The notes beneath the pieces are model-generated. The model was not told where the DNA came from and did no database searches. It was given only the letters and a program-made list of their open reading frames with translations. A stretch of DNA of 64,000 bases from Chthoniobacteraceae bacterium (GTDB taxonomy: Bacteria > Verrucomicrobiota > Verrucomicrobiia > Chthoniobacterales > Chthoniobacteraceae): NCBI GenBank assembly GCA_947476255.1, contig CANJPY010000009.1:1-64000 (forward strand), in the 5' to 3' direction. The position numbers and the translations under genes were made by a program. Shown here in pieces: positions 48,226 to 56,590 of the stretch (positions are counted from its first letter, which is position 1; each line of letters opens with the position of its first letter).

Positions 48226-48789
48226 TCACTTGCGACGCTCAAGCTGAACCGCGCCATCCGGTGCAAACGAGAGTTGAGCAAGTGATAAGAACGATCCCCC
48301 CACGACCGTTGCGCTTCGTAATTCCCATACCCCATTTGGACCGACTAAAGCGTGGGTGCACTCAAGAAGTAGCGTGCCCGTTTGTGTGCGCACGCGCAGT
48401 CCCCGGAACTCAACGGTGTCCAGAGGCAGCAAAGTTTTCACTCCACTGGGCAGGTCCGCTAAAATACGGAGATCGTCCCCCTCGGTGGTGACCTCCGTCC
48501 CCTCCCCTCGGGCGGAAGGGCTCAGAGCCTTCATAATTCCCCCCCTCTTTCCGGCGCCCAATTTTAAGCGCGCAACCCGAGCCTTACCGCGTATTTCAGC
48601 ACTGGAATCAGAACTAGAAACCCGCAGAGGAATTTCCACATCCTCCATTGTCAATTCTGAGCTGCGCGGGACTGGGGCCGGACTTTGAAGGGGGGGAGCG
48701 GCAGCCTCTCCTTCCCCGTTTTTACGACAAGCCGGCGCACTTCCTACCAAGCAAAGCAGGGTCAGACAGCCAAAACGGTTTATGACCAT
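48226..48789 (-). CDS. small exported protein, last gene of the CLCA-like cluster
   Basis: A 187-residue protein with an N-terminal export signal (INRFGCLTLLCLVGSAPAC). The Cys at residue 21 could be lipidated, but APAC is not a canonical lipobox, so either a lipoprotein or a cleaved signal peptide is possible. A Pro/Ala-rich linker follows. The rest is beta-rich (VEIPLRVSSSDSSAEIRGKA, TVEFRGLRVRTQTGTLLLEC). No family is recognised. It starts 18 bp after the 1340-residue protein gene ends and is probably the fourth gene of that operon. Confidence 0.68.
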   Translation of the reverse strand: MVINRFGCLTLLCLVGSAPACRKNGEGEAAAPPLQSPAPVPRSSELTMEDVEIPLRVSSSDSSAEIRGKARVARLKLGAGKRGGIMKALSPSARGEGTEVTTEGDDLRILADLPSGVKTLLPLDTVEFRGLRVRTQTGTLLLECTHALVGPNGVWELRSATVVGGSFLSLAQLSFAPDGAVQLERRK

Positions 48790-48807: not shown

Positions 48808-51800
48808 TTAGGGCTGAAAGGAGATCTCCAAGCCATCAGCGGTGAGCCCAATCCCTCCAATTGGCCCCCCCTGCAGGAGGACGCCGCTAAACGCTCTGGC
48901 CTTTGTGACCCCAGATATCTTAGTGCTAAGATTCCCTGAAAATGCCCCCGTGGGTAAGGCCAAAGAAAGGGAAGCACTCTTTACCACGGGCGTTCCAGGG
49001 ATAAACTGGAAAGACGGACGTGCCTTGGCAAGCGACAGCACCCCAATCGAATAAACGTCCGCTGAAACGTTGAAGGACATCACACTCGGATCAATAAACG
49101 GAAGCGGAATCTTGCCCGTTTTTGGTGCGTTGTAGGGATAGCCCTGCACCTCATAAGAGTTCTCCCATTGATAGAAGGTCGGGGACAGGCGGTTAGGATC
49201 CAACGGTCCCGATAAGACAGGAAGGGAGGAGAGCGTGCCTTTGGCCTCCTGAGTCAGAATGACATAGCCCCCAACACAAATTTCGGTGGGTGAACCGACT
49301 CCATAAAAGTTGAAGAAGGGAACCAAAGGGCGTTCGCCTTTCATTCCATCTACAAGTCGGGTTGACAAATAACTGGAGGCGGTGAAGCGGACGGGTTTGG
49401 GCAGGGCGTTGTAAACGGTGGCTTCACGATAAGCGTCCATATCCGCAGAATCCCATTCCCATCCGACCGTCCCTGAAGCAAAGGAGGGAGTGAGCACTTC
49501 ACCGGTGGTTGTGTCAGTCATCACTACATGCCCCACCTCGACGACCTGGTTTGCAGCATTGCGATAGAAAGACAAGGCAAGAACCCCGTCATAAGACGCT
49601 CTTGCCTTAACCGTGGCCTCCAATTCCTGATGATCCCCGACCGTCGCAACCCTGTAGGTAAAGGACTCCCTGCTCTCGGAACTAAACATTTCCACGACGT
49701 CGCCAGGCACATACTGGTAGTCGGCTGAAAGAATCGCCGTCACTTTGTACGAGTGGCCTGCGGTGATGTGAATCGACTCGCTTGTGGAAAGCCTCTGGTA
49801 TCCATGGGAACTCACCGGGTGGGAAACCCTGAAGAATGTTACAGGAATGCCGTACCGACTTTTAGACACATTCACAATGCCCGAATACACCACGCTTCCA
49901 CTGGAGCCCACATCGACAGATGAAAATCCAGCATCTGTTTCATTGCTGACTTTCGTTGTATAACGCTTGGAAGGCAGAGTTGCCGCCAGCGCCGCATTTG
50001 CAGCTTGATCCAGACCGTAGGATGAATACGAGGAATCTTGTTGCCCGTCCTCGTTCCAAGAAAAGTCGATCCCGGAACTGAGACTCAAATATGCATACTG
50101 CTGCGTCGTTGACTTGTAACTGTAACCCGCGGGCGCAGCCCCGTAGGGAGTAAAGTTTGCAGGGATCGGTATCTTGGCAAGGCCCGAGGCGTCGAAAGTA
50201 CCACTGTAGGAAAAGGAATTGCGCCCTGAGGTGACCCTGACGGTGTAGGCTCCAGTTTTTGCAAGAGTGAGACTCACCAATCCCGAATTTCTCCCCCCCT
50301 GCAAGACGGTGTTCCACTGCCCAGCTAAAGCTGGGAAAGGATTCACTATGAACTGAGGAGTAATTACGGTCTCTCCAGTAATGACCACATCCGCAATGGA
50401 GCGGGAAATGTCATCCTCGGGGACGCCATTGACGACAACCTCAAGCAGTCTGAACAGGTATCCGGGTTTGGCCGCGGCAACCAAGTGCAGTTTCGTCCCC
50501 ATTTCGACCAATCCGTCTACTGGAAGGGCGGGCGTCACCGTCAATGTGCCCGTATTTACATCGGCTGCATCCACGAGCACCCTGACCACTTTTGCCACTG
50601 TAAAATTAACCAACTTCGGAACGCTCTTTTGCTTGTATTGGTCCACTGCATAAATCGCTAGAGAGCAAGGCCCGCCCTGTTCAAAGGAGAGTTCAAGACT
50701 CCAACGCCAGGTGCGCACCGTCTTGCCTCCCACAATCACAGGCTGCAATTCCTCCAGTTCCGCCGAGTATGAGTCCTTCAGTGTTCCAATGGAACGCTCA
50801 ATAAAAACGCCTGTAACTTCACTCTCATCCTGCACCGTTCCTGATAATCGGATCGGCCCGGAGTCCGGAGTAAGCAGGACTTTGTTTCCATTTACGGGTA
50901 CGTCTGTGAGAATGAGCACAGGAGCGCTCTGATCGTCGCGCGTTCCCAAAGCCTTGGTAATCTCCGGCTCTGCCTTGATAATTCTGGCGAGCATGGACGC
51001 CCCCGAAAGGTTGGGAAGAACCCCAGTCAACGTCTGCGTTGCTATCGTTCCACCCGCGAGGTTCTTTGTAAAAGGGGGAACCGCGTTCTGGGAAGCCGTG
51101 ACGCTCCTCATCCCCGCCGGACGCGCGCTCACTGCCTTTAGGTTCACTGGATATCTTTTTGTCACGCCGCCAAAGTCAGAGGACTCCGCAATGAACAGTT
51201 TGGTCCCTGAAGCGATCGAATCCGTAACATTCTTGGCAAAATCTCTGACATACCCGTCCTCGCTGAGGTCGGTGAAAGGATCCTGCGAAAAATTGGCACG
51301 CGCCGGGAAAAAATTCGAGTCGGAATCAATCAACCTCGATACCGTTGCACCGTTGGATGGATACACAAAGTTGGAGAACTTCATATAAGCGGAGGCCCCA
51401 TTGCCGAGGGCCGTCACGGCCTTGGCCTGAAAAGCGGCACCGCCCGAAGCGGCGGCGAGTAGGTTTGGATAGTCCTTCAGAATAGATTCCATGGACAATT
51501 TGCCCTGAGGAAACAAAGCCTGCAGCACATCCAATTTGACACTCGTGTCGACACTGCTGAGCACGCTCAAAAGGGCGCTTAACCCATTGCAGCCGACACG
51601 CAACATTTGAATGTCGCCATAGTCCACTCGAAGGTTCCGCACCAGTCCACCGCTGGTTCGCCATGAAGCGAAATCGCCAGTCGCGAAGTTTGTTACAAAA
51701 CGCGTGTCCGTGATTTTTGCGAGGTTCGCGTCTGCTTTGTCTAAAGCGGGCAGGAGAACTTGAGTTATCCAATTTGAGGCCTGAGAGGTGTTAGCCGTCG

Positions 51801-52830
51801 CCAAAAATGTGCCTGACCACACGAGCCCAGAAAGAGGAAGTTTCAAAGGGCCACTCACTCCAAATGCCTTCAAGGTGCTTGTGGTGCGGGTATCGTTGAC
51901 GAGCGCAAACAACTCACTTAATGAAGAAACAAACAACTCCTCCCCGCCGCTCGGCGCTGCTGCCAAGGCTGAGCCCGCCTTTGTTTTGGCAAGTGTTGAA
52001 TTTTGTGCATTGATCGCAGCACGCGCCGCAATGACATCCGCACTCCTCACGGAAACCACCACTGCATCTGATCGTACCTTTTGAGTCCCACTGGTTACAA
52101 CCAGTTGATAAAGACCGCTATCACCGGCGACAGCTTTCGTCTTGGTGTAGGTCGCTGCGGTTGCGCCAGAAATCGACACTCCGTTGCGGAGCCACTGGTA
52201 GGTCACCCCAGGCACTTGAGCTGAAGGGTTCATAGAGGCAGAAAGTGTGAGGGTTGCTCCCACCGCTAGCACTGTATCTGAAGGCTGGAGAGAGAACCAC
52301 CGGGTGACCTCGAATCTGGTCTTCACTGCGGCAGGAAAAGTCAAATCCGAGGGCCCGTATACCGAAGATTGTCCGTTAAAACCTTGAAGGCGCGCTCCCG
52401 TGAGGTTCCACGTTCCAACCTGATTAAGCGCCTCAGAATTAGGTCCGTACCACCCCCTGATTTCCCTCTCATTCAACTGGTAGGTCTGCCTCGTACGATC
52501 CGTCGGCAACAAATAGTCCCGCTTTGTGATGGTCCACTCGTCTCCAGCATAAAACAATTTACGGCCATCGGGCGCCGTAAATTCCAGTTCGAAAAACTCC
52601 ACCCCCTGAGTATCGGCGCTCACCACAGCTTCCATGGCGACTCCACGAAGTGACTCGTCTGATGATGAGATCTCCACGACGTCACCGGCCGGCGTCGCGA
52701 TGCCTAAGCCCACCAGTTGAGGGGCGGCGCCTGCAGGCAGCGCTCTGGCTTCGTGTTGCGCCAATAAAAACGCCGCCAGTGCAGCGCAGACTCGGAGGAT
52801 GCCGGGGGTTCCGGCGGCTTTTACTTTCAT
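48808..52830 (-). CDS. 1340-residue secreted Ig-domain surface protein
   Basis: A very large exported protein. It has a signal peptide (residues 1-30, cleavage after ARA). An N-terminal beta domain (about 35-165) is followed by an Ig-like domain at 178-262 with the pattern GATLTLSAS, TYQWLRNGVSI and AGDSGLYQLVV. A long unassigned region (about 265-640) is followed by a bacterial Ig/cadherin-like stretch (about 640-740). A divergent InlB-like B-repeat segment, GTLTVTPALPVDGLVEMG, lies around 755-810. C-terminal beta modules of the 'SGVLLQ' type are common in Verrucomicrobiota surface proteins. Binding or anchoring on the cell surface is inferred; no catalytic motif was found. It lies 37 bp after the HEAT gene. 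Confidence 0.85.
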   Translation of the reverse strand: MKVKAAGTPGILRVCAALAAFLLAQHEARALPAGAAPQLVGLGIATPAGDVVEISSSDESLRGVAMEAVVSADTQGVEFFELEFTAPDGRKLFYAGDEWTITKRDYLLPTDRTRQTYQLNEREIRGWYGPNSEALNQVGTWNLTGARLQGFNGQSSVYGPSDLTFPAAVKTRFEVTRWFSLQPSDTVLAVGATLTLSASMNPSAQVPGVTYQWLRNGVSISGATAATYTKTKAVAGDSGLYQLVVTSGTQKVRSDAVVVSVRSADVIAARAAINAQNSTLAKTKAGSALAAAPSGGEELFVSSLSELFALVNDTRTTSTLKAFGVSGPLKLPLSGLVWSGTFLATANTSQASNWITQVLLPALDKADANLAKITDTRFVTNFATGDFASWRTSGGLVRNLRVDYGDIQMLRVGCNGLSALLSVLSSVDTSVKLDVLQALFPQGKLSMESILKDYPNLLAAASGGAAFQAKAVTALGNGASAYMKFSNFVYPSNGATVSRLIDSDSNFFPARANFSQDPFTDLSEDGYVRDFAKNVTDSIASGTKLFIAESSDFGGVTKRYPVNLKAVSARPAGMRSVTASQNAVPPFTKNLAGGTIATQTLTGVLPNLSGASMLARIIKAEPEITKALGTRDDQSAPVLILTDVPVNGNKVLLTPDSGPIRLSGTVQDESEVTGVFIERSIGTLKDSYSAELEELQPVIVGGKTVRTWRWSLELSFEQGGPCSLAIYAVDQYKQKSVPKLVNFTVAKVVRVLVDAADVNTGTLTVTPALPVDGLVEMGTKLHLVAAAKPGYLFRLLEVVVNGVPEDDISRSIADVVITGETVITPQFIVNPFPALAGQWNTVLQGGRNSGLVSLTLAKTGAYTVRVTSGRNSFSYSGTFDASGLAKIPIPANFTPYGAAPAGYSYKSTTQQYAYLSLSSGIDFSWNEDGQQDSSYSSYGLDQAANAALAATLPSKRYTTKVSNETDAGFSSVDVGSSGSVVYSGIVNVSKSRYGIPVTFFRVSHPVSSHGYQRLSTSESIHITAGHSYKVTAILSADYQYVPGDVVEMFSSESRESFTYRVATVGDHQELEATVKARASYDGVLALSFYRNAANQVVEVGHVVMTDTTTGEVLTPSFASGTVGWEWDSADMDAYREATVYNALPKPVRFTASSYLSTRLVDGMKGERPLVPFFNFYGVGSPTEICVGGYVILTQEAKGTLSSLPVLSGPLDPNRLSPTFYQWENSYEVQGYPYNAPKTGKIPLPFIDPSVMSFNVSADVYSIGVLSLAKARPSFQFIPGTPVVKSASLSLALPTGAFSGNLSTKISGVTKARAFSGVLLQGGPIGGIGLTADGLEISFQP

Positions 52831-52867: not shown

Positions 52868-53506
52868 CTAAGAACCATCAGCGGAGCGAAATGGATTCTC
52901 AAAGGGGTCCAAATGCACATAGTACCGGTCCAGAAAGGCGGCGACCGCATCTCGGTTTTCCTTGGGCAGGGAGCCGTTTTTTAAAGTTAAAAGCAGCGCC
53001 TTCTGCACGCGGTCGTTACGATGGGCCCGAAGAGAAAGCAGTGCGTGATCTCGCACTGACGCATCTCGGTCTGAAAGAGCGCGTACAAGAGCCAGTGACG
53101 CCATGGGTTCAGTATTAAAGAACTCGAGGACACCAGCAGCTTGGACTCTCACCCGAGCATCCGTATCGCTGCCCAAAAACTCCACTAACAATCCCAGACC
53201 TCTGAGGTCCGCCTTCATTCCCAAACTGCGGACAGCTTCAGCACGGATTTCGGCATCCACACTCCCCCAATCCTCAAGCTCCTTGACCGTGAGTACGCCA
53301 GACTCGAACAAGGAGCGCTGCATTTGCTCAACTTGACTCGGATAGTGAAAGGCGCTTGCTGACGCCTCGGCGGAACCACCTTTGACTTCGTTGCCGAGGG
53401 TGTCGGCAACGGATCGAGGCACGGCATTCTGAAAATGTAAAATGACACCAACCACCACAGCGAGTGCGCCTACGAAGAGTCCTTTTTTCATCGCTTCTGA
53501 GGTCAT
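52868..53506 (-). CDS. membrane-anchored HEAT-repeat protein
   Basis: A 212-residue protein with one N-terminal hydrophobic segment (KKGLFVGALAVVVGVILHF) that is an uncleaved anchor or signal. A helical part with HEAT-type repeats follows at about 75-190: EIRAEAVRSLGMKADLRGLG, ARVRVQAAGVLEFFNTEPMA and ASVRDHALLSLRAHRNDRVQ. It probably contacts a partner protein outside the membrane. It lies between the CLCA-like gene (27 bp) and the 1340-residue protein gene (37 bp), so it is very likely part of the same operon. The start may also be ATG 53491. Confidence 0.8.
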   Translation of the reverse strand: MTSEAMKKGLFVGALAVVVGVILHFQNAVPRSVADTLGNEVKGGSAEASASAFHYPSQVEQMQRSLFESGVLTVKELEDWGSVDAEIRAEAVRSLGMKADLRGLGLLVEFLGSDTDARVRVQAAGVLEFFNTEPMASLALVRALSDRDASVRDHALLSLRAHRNDRVQKALLLTLKNGSLPKENRDAVAAFLDRYYVHLDPFENPFRSADGS

Positions 53507-53533: not shown

Positions 53534-56500
53534 CTAATAGGACAGGCTGAGAACACCGGAGGCAGAGGTTGCGGTGGAGGTAATCTTCGTGCTCTTGGAA
53601 AAAGAGCCTGCCGACAGAGTCACGTTTGCCGTTTGTAAAATGGTTGCCCCCAAATTGAGCCGTGTTCCATTCAGGGAAACAATGCGTCTCTGAAGGTCAA
53701 CCGTCACTGCCACAAAGCCACCGCCGACACTGAGCGTACCCATCGCCTTGGTGGCGTTGATTCCCGTGCCAACCGTGAGCGTATTCGGAGGCACGGTGAC
53801 TAAAAACTGCCCGACCTGCAGCGAGAGACTGTCAGTGCCAGGGGTGTAGCCTCCCCCTTGGGTTTGGTAGGACACGACTGCGCGCAAAGAATCACTGCGG
53901 TTCTGCTTTGCCGAGATGCTGGCAAGCAGACCGTCTACATAGAGAACCTCGCTAGTGGGAAAGTTGCTGGCGCAAACGTAGACAGCAGACTTTCCTTCGG
54001 CATCGGCTCGATTCGAGAGCGCAACCGTCCTCGCAAAGCTGCCAAAGGAGACGCCCACATTGGTAGCTGCATCGAAATCAAACGACCTTGCATCAAACCC
54101 AGTCATGGAGAGGAGCAATTCATGCTTAGAACTGCCTCCAATCGCTGTGGTAAACGTTCCGGTCAACCCACGTGACGGGTCCGAGAGGCCATACACGCCG
54201 GGGACGCGAGTGGGCCGCATACTCGAACCAGCAACGACGATTCGGGAGGAATCCAAAGTCAGGATCAATGAATCCTGCCCAGGCACAAAAGTGCTCGTAT
54301 CCGTGTTGAATGTGCAGCGCAGTTGCACTGTGCCAGTTGATGCCACTGAACTTAACCGCGTTATGCTCAGCGCATCCACTCGCAACCATTCCGTCTGCGA
54401 CACCGCCGGCACTCCCGTGACCGTCACGGTATTCGTACCAATTCTGGTGAAAGGCTTGATCAAAATCGGCGCCGCGGCAGTCAGGGAATTCTCATTCTCA
54501 CCAGTAGCGGCTCGCCCGTTGACATTCACGACCTTCACATTGAAGGCGTACACTCCGTTAGCGGGAAACCCGCCATAATAACCACTGTAAACCCCGTCAC
54601 CCGGTGTTTTATCGCCGTGTATGGAGGCACCGTCGTCAAACAATGTAAAAGAACCCAACACCCCATTGGGTCCAGTAACTTGACCGGTCACGCTTGCGCC
54701 AGCCACCGGTGTTCCTGCCGTCACACTACAGGTAATCAGGGCGGGCTGAGGATAGTTTACCGTCTTGGATGCGACAACGGGAGCGACACTCACCACGGAA
54801 CTGGTTGCATTTGCCATCACATTGTACCGATAGGTCGCACCAGTGTTCGTTTTTGGCGAGGCAACAGAAAGTTTCCAATTTCCAGCGACGGGTCTCGACA
54901 CCCGAAACACCGTGTTGTTCGGCTCCTTCTGCATGACCACCCCGTCCGCACTTGAGCTTTGAGAAAACTTCCTGCCTGAGGGCGAAACCAACTGCGCGTC
55001 CATGCCCTCTTCGGGAGAGGCTACAGAAAAAGTAATCTCTTCGCTCAAGGCATCCACGGGAATCACTGTCTCGGCAGAGGAGTTTTCAAAGAGAAGACTA
55101 CCCAAGGCTTCCATGATCCCGCCACCTCGCAATTCCCCGTAAATTCGCGAATAAATGTCCAGCAAACCGAGACCGTCCGTGGCTTGAAAAAACTTCCCCC
55201 CACTGGTGTTGGCCATTTCCAGAAGACCCGACGTATCCGCACCCGCCCCAAGTGCGATCGAAAAGATGCGTGTCCCGCGGGCAACGGCGTTTTGGGCAAC
55301 CTGAGCCATGGAAATCCTTGAGGAATTGTCCTGACCATCGCTTAAGATGACAATGTTCTCTTGGGCGCCAGCCTCTCCATCATCGCTGAAAACATCCAGA
55401 GCCTTCTGCACTCCATCCCCAATCGCTGTACTGCCCCGTGGCCCTAATAACGAAATCGCGGCTTTCGCGCTCCCGCGAACCGCTCCAGCAGAGTCTACCT
55501 CCGTCAGAGGATAAGTCACAGTAACATCCCCGTCGAAATCAATCACAGCCAAGCGGTCCGCAGGGTAGACATCGGTGTCGGCAAAGCCGTTGACAAAATT
55601 GGTGACAACATGCCGGTCCACAGTCAGACCAGCCATAAAGCCCGCACCCAGCTTCGCAAGCGGCATTCGGTTTTCACCGCCCATGCTGCCCGAGCGGTCC
55701 AAAACGATCGCGAGACGCGAAACATCAGGCATCACAAGCCACTCCACCGAGGTATCACCAACCGGCAAAACCCTGTCGGCAGGCCCATTGTGCGCTTTTA
55801 GAAACACCTTCTCGCCCTTCCACTCAAACTTGCCCAGCGTTTCCCAAGAACTCTCCCCGTTCATGATCCAGTTCTCAGTCATCCACCAGTTCGCGCCAAC
55901 CTGAGAACCTTTGTTGACGTCATACGGACTGTCAAATTCAGTGACCGAATTTCCCACCCCTCCACCGCCAGTCATTATTGTGGGCGCGACCGAAAACGGA
56001 AGGCGTTGAATGGCACTCAAATCAGCGGGCGTCCAACTTGACTTGAGTGACATCGGCACCGATGCGCCCTGATACTCGTCATACAAACCAAAAACATAGT
56101 GCGAGAGCTCATGCACCAAGCTGAACCCACCCCGAAACACAGACCTGTTGCTCCGATGCCTCTCTCCAAACATAGTCGTCCGGTAACCGGGCACCCCTAG
56201 CTTTGCCACTCCATTGCTGAAAGCTGCTGAATTTCCGCGCAGCACCCAAACATCTGCTGTTTCCTTCTTCGAAAAGGCCCTTCGATACACCCTTACCTTC
56301 CCAATTTTCAGCTGCCCGTTGGTCGCGTTCCAAAGCCGAGCCGACGCGTCGTTAAACACGGCGCGCCAACTCTCCAAATTCGTGGCTCCATTCAAGTTTT
56401 CCTCCGTCTCCGAAAATGAAAACACAACGCTGAGGTCGAGCGTTTGAGAAGCCTTATTAATCGACCCATCCCCGGCCGTTGACCGAGGGGCAGCGGCCAA

Positions 56501-56590
56501 TAACCCAGCACCGATTCCCAAACCACATACGAGTCGTCTGAGGGTTCGATTTGAACGACTTTGCCTAGGGGGAGTCAGGGAGGAATTCAT
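53534..56590 (-). CDS. CLCA-like zincin plus von Willebrand A secreted protein
   Basis: A 1018-residue exported protein with a signal at residues about 18-40. The N-terminal domain ends in a zinc site HELSHYVFGLYDEY at 160-173 (HExxHxxxGxxDE), and the earlier FNDASARLWNATNGQLKIGK matches the style of the N-CLCA domain. A VWA domain follows (about 290-480) with a complete MIDAS: DRSGS at 298-302, Thr in GSTAIGDG near 388, and Asp in ILSDGQDN near 418. After it come beta domains, including LFDDGASIHGDKTPGDGVYS, which resembles the region after VWA in animal CLCA proteins. Function is inferred as a Ca/Zn-dependent protease or adhesin. It heads a four-gene exported cluster. Confidence 0.88.
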   Translation of the reverse strand: MNSSLTPPRQSRSNRTLRRLVCGLGIGAGLLAAAPRSTAGDGSINKASQTLDLSVVFSFSETEENLNGATNLESWRAVFNDASARLWNATNGQLKIGKVRVYRRAFSKKETADVWVLRGNSAAFSNGVAKLGVPGYRTTMFGERHRSNRSVFRGGFSLVHELSHYVFGLYDEYQGASVPMSLKSSWTPADLSAIQRLPFSVAPTIMTGGGGVGNSVTEFDSPYDVNKGSQVGANWWMTENWIMNGESSWETLGKFEWKGEKVFLKAHNGPADRVLPVGDTSVEWLVMPDVSRLAIVLDRSGSMGGENRMPLAKLGAGFMAGLTVDRHVVTNFVNGFADTDVYPADRLAVIDFDGDVTVTYPLTEVDSAGAVRGSAKAAISLLGPRGSTAIGDGVQKALDVFSDDGEAGAQENIVILSDGQDNSSRISMAQVAQNAVARGTRIFSIALGAGADTSGLLEMANTSGGKFFQATDGLGLLDIYSRIYGELRGGGIMEALGSLLFENSSAETVIPVDALSEEITFSVASPEEGMDAQLVSPSGRKFSQSSSADGVVMQKEPNNTVFRVSRPVAGNWKLSVASPKTNTGATYRYNVMANATSSVVSVAPVVASKTVNYPQPALITCSVTAGTPVAGASVTGQVTGPNGVLGSFTLFDDGASIHGDKTPGDGVYSGYYGGFPANGVYAFNVKVVNVNGRAATGENENSLTAAAPILIKPFTRIGTNTVTVTGVPAVSQTEWLRVDALSITRLSSVASTGTVQLRCTFNTDTSTFVPGQDSLILTLDSSRIVVAGSSMRPTRVPGVYGLSDPSRGLTGTFTTAIGGSSKHELLLSMTGFDARSFDFDAATNVGVSFGSFARTVALSNRADAEGKSAVYVCASNFPTSEVLYVDGLLASISAKQNRSDSLRAVVSYQTQGGGYTPGTDSLSLQVGQFLVTVPPNTLTVGTGINATKAMGTLSVGGGFVAVTVDLQRRIVSLNGTRLNLGATILQTANVTLSAGSFSKSTKITSTATSASGVLSLSY

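Follow-up and report, generated by a model that had tools for sequence, protein, structure and literature searches.

In the window, a 64,000-nucleotide stretch of DNA from a Chthoniobacteraceae bacterium with a draft genome of 5.15 Mb, we found a gene that probably encodes an exported, self-cleaving zinc metalloprotease of the CLCA type, with the adjacent HEAT-repeat protein as its likeliest partner. By sequence comparison, the homology, order and spacing of its three main domains are established and its active-site residues are intact. These features largely support the reading of a probably exported protein with the layout of the animal CLCAs, in which a putative zinc-protease domain, a ligand-binding VWA domain and a beta-rich domain follow each other in this order. 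The earlier note on this DNA presented the family as little studied; however, Lenart et al. had already described prokaryotic CLCAs in 2013, in ten strains of Chloroflexi, Synergistetes, Proteobacteria and Thermococcus (PMC3650047). Within the open-access literature, to which later work may add, the window's protein is a new and divergent member of this known bacterial family.

Table 1. Features of the CLCA-type gene and its neighbours in the window.
Feature	Coordinates	Strand	Basis or remark
CLCA-type protein, 1018 aa	53534..56590	(-)	ATG start, complete ORF
Probable Sec signal peptide, residues 1-39	56474..56590	(-)	Sequence features
Zincin (metzincin-like) catalytic domain, predicted, residues 41-292	55715..56470	(-)	Family profile, AlphaFold2/Foldseek
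HELSHYVFGLYDEY, residues 160-173, predicted zinc site and catalytic E161	56072..56113	(-)	
M206 of [ST]IM motif, candidate Met-turn	55973..55975	(-)	Met in 45/47 relatives
VWA domain, residues 292-480	55151..55717	(-)	Pfam, family profile
Beta-rich domain, first half, residues 500-599 (galactose-binding-like, GBD_Hemicentin)	54794..55093	(-)	PF23560
Beta-rich domain, second half with DDG...GDGVYS block, residues 607-700	54491..54772	(-)	NF041940
Low-confidence linker, residues 695-712	54455..54508	(-)	Place equivalent to animal CLCA self-cleavage region
C-terminal repeat 1, residues 718-868	53987..54439	(-)	
C-terminal repeat 2, residues 869-1018	53537..53986	(-)	
HEAT-repeat protein, 212 aa, N-terminal hydrophobic anchor or signal	52868..53506	(-)	PF13646, E = 1.9e-8
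Third gene, 1340 aa probably exported protein, Ig-like domain	48808..52830	(-)	PF13895, E = 7.3e-6
Fourth gene, 187 aa protein, N-terminal hydrophobic stretch	48226..48789	(-)	

A search of 57 related genomes returned a single relative with the full-length layout, which is 65% identical and comes from the same genus (genome G002), and nearly all remaining matches were restricted to the VWA region. The composition of the window's gene (GC 0.549, GC3 0.593) lies slightly below that of its housekeeping neighbours and does not prove a recent acquisition. The N-terminus of the protein is probably a Sec signal peptide, judging from a basic n-region, the hydrophobic stretch LVCGLGIGAGLLAAA and the residues STA preceding GDGS; the AGDGS junction is also present in the G002 relative.

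The domain behind the signal peptide is predicted to adopt a zincin fold. AlphaFold2 gave a pLDDT of 80 and a pTM of 0.84 with a 47-row alignment, and a mean pLDDT of 81.5 and a pTM of 0.86 for the N-terminal domain alone with 77 rows. The predicted model has the zincin/metzincin arrangement of strand, helix and further strands, followed by the HExxH helix, and H160, E161 and H164 lie on a single helix (residues 148-167). In a Foldseek search of the N-terminal model against the PDB, the 50 matches listed were all zincins, including astacin, ADAM, ADAMTS, snake venom proteases, MMPs and M64, with individually weak scores (best E = 2.6e-3). The common helix and these zincin matches lend indirect support to a spatial grouping of the HExxH residues, which the earlier note had named as a check. 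The active-site motif of the CLCA family, HExxHxxxGxxDEY, is present with H160, E161, H164, G168, D171, E172 and Y173 at the positions that the earlier note had given for them. The predicted zinc ligands are H160, H164 and D171 or E172, and E161 is the predicted catalytic residue. The motif is found in 47 of 47 aligned relatives, most of which were selected by it. Outside the motif, 45 of the 47 relatives keep M206 and 46 keep W249; M206 follows the site and, by analogy, may correspond to the Met-turn of metzincins. Chance is excluded by the conservation of these two residues together with a domain order and spacing that recur in at least about 45 proteins.

Directly behind the catalytic domain, as in the CLCA family, is a VWA domain (PF00092 at residues 293-479, E = 2.1e-14). 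Its MIDAS positions are occupied by D298, S300, S302, T388 and D418, in agreement with the earlier reading of a complete MIDAS. When the family profile was compared with known structures, the VWA domain of human CLCA1 (6pyo) was matched with an E-value of 1e-24 but ranked after PTMP1 and collagen VI, so that the VWA domain alone is not CLCA-specific. A PHROGs search yielded weak matches only, in the VWA region. The beta-rich domain that follows was recognised in both halves. The first matches PF23560 at residues 505-581 (E = 8.9e-7), and the second matches the family profile with an E-value of 4.5e-25 and contains the block DDGASIHGDKTPGDGVYS at residues 652-669, anticipated in the earlier note, which matches NF041940 (choice_anch_X) above the cut-off (E = 1.2e-6). 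The NCBIfam model hCaCC (TIGR00868) covers residues 294-691 with an E-value of 1.2e-24 and a score far under its curated cut-off of 901 bits. When the protein was cut into pieces, this model still matched the beta-rich part (residues 490-717, E = 9.6e-12) and the VWA domain (E = 1e-11) separately, and the N-terminal part alone gave no match to it. A beta-rich domain of the CLCA kind is thus found behind the VWA domain.

Close to the end of the beta-rich domain, the model loses confidence (pLDDT below 50 at residues 700-705), and residue 691 is aligned to position 684 of the TIGR00868 profile. By analogy with the animal proteins, self-cleavage may take place in this linker. The two repeats behind it are weakly similar to each other (E = 9e-5 in a pairwise comparison), and among 13 related genomes searched the C-terminal region was confined to the two genus members; the repeats are lineage-specific. 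Pfam detected no fibronectin type III domain of the animal kind in the C-terminal part. No cysteine is present between residues 23 and 620, and therefore the protein has no animal-type Cys-rich region; the 116 residues behind the motif are Cys-free in 19 of 45 bacterial relatives too. To call the protein a full-length bacterial version, as had been done, is too strong given that both parts are missing.

For export, zinc binding, activity, self-cleavage, substrate and HEAT partnership, we infer the following course. The precursor would be exported through its N-terminal signal peptide, and the zincin domain would hold zinc by H160, H164 and D171 (or E172), with E161 serving as the catalytic base. 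The MIDAS of the VWA domain may bind a metal together with an acidic ligand or partner and thereby position the substrate. The protease would then cleave itself, probably in trans, within the linker behind the beta-rich domain, after which the catalytic half may either remain on the two C-terminal repeats or leave them. A further substrate is likely to be an extracellular or envelope glycoprotein or a matrix protein, and the adjacent, membrane-anchored HEAT protein is the most likely partner. In animal CLCAs, the catalytic, VWA and beta-rich domains are likewise followed by self-cleavage and a C-terminal part (PMC6851300), and the cleavage of human CLCA2, which occurs in trans at residue 708, needs zinc and the glutamate of HExxH (PMC10669480). 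We consider it unlikely that the protein is instead a non-enzymatic adhesin or scaffold, with a zincin fold kept for structure or binding and a functional VWA domain. Several animal CLCAs have persisted after loss of the catalytic motif (PMC3650047) and the MIDAS residues of the window's protein are complete, as such a role would have it, but the active-site residues are all intact in both genus members. That the other relatives have the motif does not count against this alternative, because the scan that found them required it.

The HEAT gene follows the gene of the proposed protease at a distance of 27 bp and is the first of three genes behind it; all four, from 56590 to 48226, are co-oriented with gaps of 27, 37 and 18 bp. 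A 44% identical HEAT relative adjoins the CLCA-type gene of G002. In the other same-genus genomes searched, most of which are incomplete drafts, neither a full-length CLCA-type relative nor a comparable HEAT protein was found. The Ig-like match of the third gene is just below the cut-off, and Pfam and NCBIfam gave no family match for the fourth. It is quite improbable, in our judgement, that the four genes form one machine, in which a protease and a HEAT adaptor would act together with a large substrate carrying the Ig domain and with a small protein of the envelope. Such a machine would fit the tight spacing on one strand and the HEAT gene that lies behind the protease gene in G002 as well; however, the third gene is not kept in place, since G002 has a different, autotransporter-like repeat protein there. 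The window's third gene is one of a set that recurs throughout the genus, including in genomes without the protease, and its parts have many genus-specific relatives elsewhere. In addition, the neighbours of the other relatives showed by inspection no common partner or theme. The four-gene machine was accordingly set aside as unsupported. The CLCA-type and HEAT genes, in contrast, look like a pair, as the HEAT gene also adjoins the G002 relative whereas the third gene differs. Of the operon of exported proteins claimed before, the HEAT partner, kept in one same-genus relative, thus stands, and the third and fourth genes, which are not in that place in the relative, do not.

The gene after HEAT in G002 (L031:12825-17105) encodes a very long protein that extends past the contig end. 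At G000:C2:62127-64010 lies a paralogue that is 45% identical to the third gene of the window over its first half; it carries two in-frame stop codons and is probably a decayed copy. In a promoter scan, the window did not clearly exceed shuffled sequence. Terminator-like sites were more frequent than in the comparison (25 versus 12.9) but spread over both strands, and we therefore drew no operon boundary.

The membership of the catalytic domain in the CLCA family was assessed separately. The Pfam CLCA model (PF08434), which was expected to match before the VWA domain, gave no match there, either for the isolated domain (E up to 10) or in the whole protein (E up to 1). Under the criterion set in the earlier note, this outcome would refute the CLCA reading, and the domain was therefore examined further. 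Across 388 genomes of the phylum it had no match, and the controls were likewise without one. It reached an E-value of 0.01 or lower in 15 of the 47 aligned relatives (best 4.7e-5), but no bacterial CLCA-type protein that was listed individually, that of Shewanella included, scored above its cut-off. The model is therefore animal-biased, and its silence is uninformative for bacterial members. A broad family profile, made from 43 relatives with the window's genus left out, found the window's N-terminal domain with an E-value of 7.6e-28, and of 6.8e-12 when the 14-residue motif was masked (search space 1e6). None of 2000 shuffles scored. A second profile was restricted to seven proteobacterial CLCA-type proteins (from Shewanella, Pseudoalteromonas, Granulosicoccus and others), which are of the kind named CLCA by Lenart et al. 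(PMC3650047). It matched the domain with an E-value of 1.1e-11, and with the motif masked the match was not significant (E = 0.025). It should be noted that these E-values are somewhat flattered, because the motif, together with a profile that contained the window's protein, had served to select the relatives, which is mildly circular. Both profiles nevertheless place the catalytic domain with those of bacterial CLCA-type proteins. Overall, the CLCA-like reading of the earlier note held for the domain order and the zincin assignment, and it did not for the Pfam CLCA match, the full length and the novelty of the family.

An independent zincin-VWA fusion nearer to M64 (IgA peptidase), CLCA-like through convergence, is very improbable: the best PDB sequence matches of the family profile are M64 structures (E about 1e-3) and the M64 motif is almost identical, but the similarity is restricted to about 37 residues around the motif, same-phylum M64 proteins score 12-19 bits with the broad family profile versus 104 for the window's domain, and the beta-rich domain alone also matches the CLCA model. 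Membership in Peptidase M64 itself was rejected, since PF09471, the one Pfam family hinted at when the N-terminal domain was searched by itself, has an E-value of 0.051 over 24 residues only and is not domain-wide.

The spread of the CLCA-type proteins was wider than previously described. A single-protein pattern search of genome contigs found no relatives, and plasmid records gave no match. Within the phylum, an N-terminal profile of two rows, used for distant relatives, detected a zincin with VWA in two genomes (G143 and G339) and a zincin in a large protein without VWA in a third (G215). A hand-made motif pattern scanned over about 85,000 genomes returned at least 116 stretches (L054-L169). 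All four modules (zincin, VWA, galactose-binding-like, DGVYS) were present in 45 of at least 118 motif-bearing ORFs, a set that includes one viral contig. In the window's protein, the VWA domain starts 132 residues and the DGVYS module 447 residues after H160; the corresponding distances in the relatives are mostly 115 to 190 and 425 to 520. The full CLCA order was thus found in at least about 45 proteins from at least 13 phyla, including one archaeon (Thermoplasmata), where phyla were taken from record titles and single assignments may be wrong because many relatives are metagenome bins. In a tree built without animal CLCA sequences, the window's lineage forms a long branch (1.44 changes per column), and the window's protein is, by sequence, a deep-branching member of the bacterial CLCA-type family.

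Several other groups were observed. Four to six cysteines behind the active site are present in L055, L056, L061, L125 and L156 (also in L064 and L149), and the first five cluster in the tree, with a weak join for L056. This Cys-bearing branch has members from Actinomycetota, Bipolaricaulota, Thermoplasmata and Pirellulaceae, and it may be the one closest to the animal form with its Cys-rich region. Zincins with HExxHxxxGx[FY]DEY and no detected VWA (L054, L060, L067, L069, L070, L111, L121 and others) amount to at least 43 complete ORFs, often deep in large multidomain proteins of Bacteroidota, Ignavibacteria, Chloroflexota, Planctomycetota and Zixiibacteria, and they possibly represent a sister family. 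In L063, L101, L118, L151 and L167, four of which are titled Chloroflexi or relatives, the DGVYS module lies about 155 residues after the zincin with no VWA detected between them. The viral contig (IMG/VR; L052:4794-4835) carries the motif as HEIGHIVHGSFDEY within a 638 aa ORF and may belong to CLCA_X, the phage-borne group of Lenart et al.

Lenart et al. argued for a transfer from animals to bacteria on the basis of prokaryotic rarity (PMC3650047), an argument that is weakened by the wide spread observed here compared with the ten strains of 2013. It is quite conceivable, if somewhat short of probable, that CLCA-type proteases are old and widespread in prokaryotes, that animal CLCAs were derived from them and that the window's protein is one of several deep prokaryotic branches older than the animal form. 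If true, such a prokaryotic origin would reverse the published direction of transfer, and with the breadth of the spread the question of where animal CLCAs came from can be put to the test. The mode of action of human CLCAs, whether as protease, in mucus processing or in channel regulation, is still debated. A bacterial counterpart that does without the Cys-rich region and the fibronectin domain is simpler and would lend itself as a model in which to study the catalytic mechanism and the contributions of the VWA and beta-rich domains.

Among known systems, the ADAM/reprolysin metzincins resemble the window's protein in the predicted fold and in an HExxH helix with an IM motif behind it, possibly the Met-turn. 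In contrast, the motif of the window's protein is one residue longer, with Asp/Glu replacing the third His, and a propeptide and a disintegrin domain are absent. Peptidase M64 (for example 3p1v) shares the zincin fold and the nearly identical HExxH...DEY motif, whereas the similarity ends around that motif; the M64 family is not known to contain a VWA and beta-rich domain. Animal CLCA1 and CLCA2 have the same order of catalytic, VWA and beta-rich domains with similar boundaries, and TIGR00868 extends over the latter two. The window's protein differs from them by the absence of the Cys-rich region, the fibronectin domain and a transmembrane tail, and by an N-terminal domain that Pfam CLCA does not recognise. 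The closest counterparts are the prokaryotic CLCAs (PMC3650047; Shewanella, Desulfobulbus, Synergistetes and others), with which it shares the HExxHxxxGxxDEY domain, the VWA and beta-rich order and a patchy distribution. Unlike these, the window's protein lies on a deep separate branch, lacks fibronectin, carries two C-terminal repeats of its own and comes from Verrucomicrobiota, a phylum outside the 2013 table.
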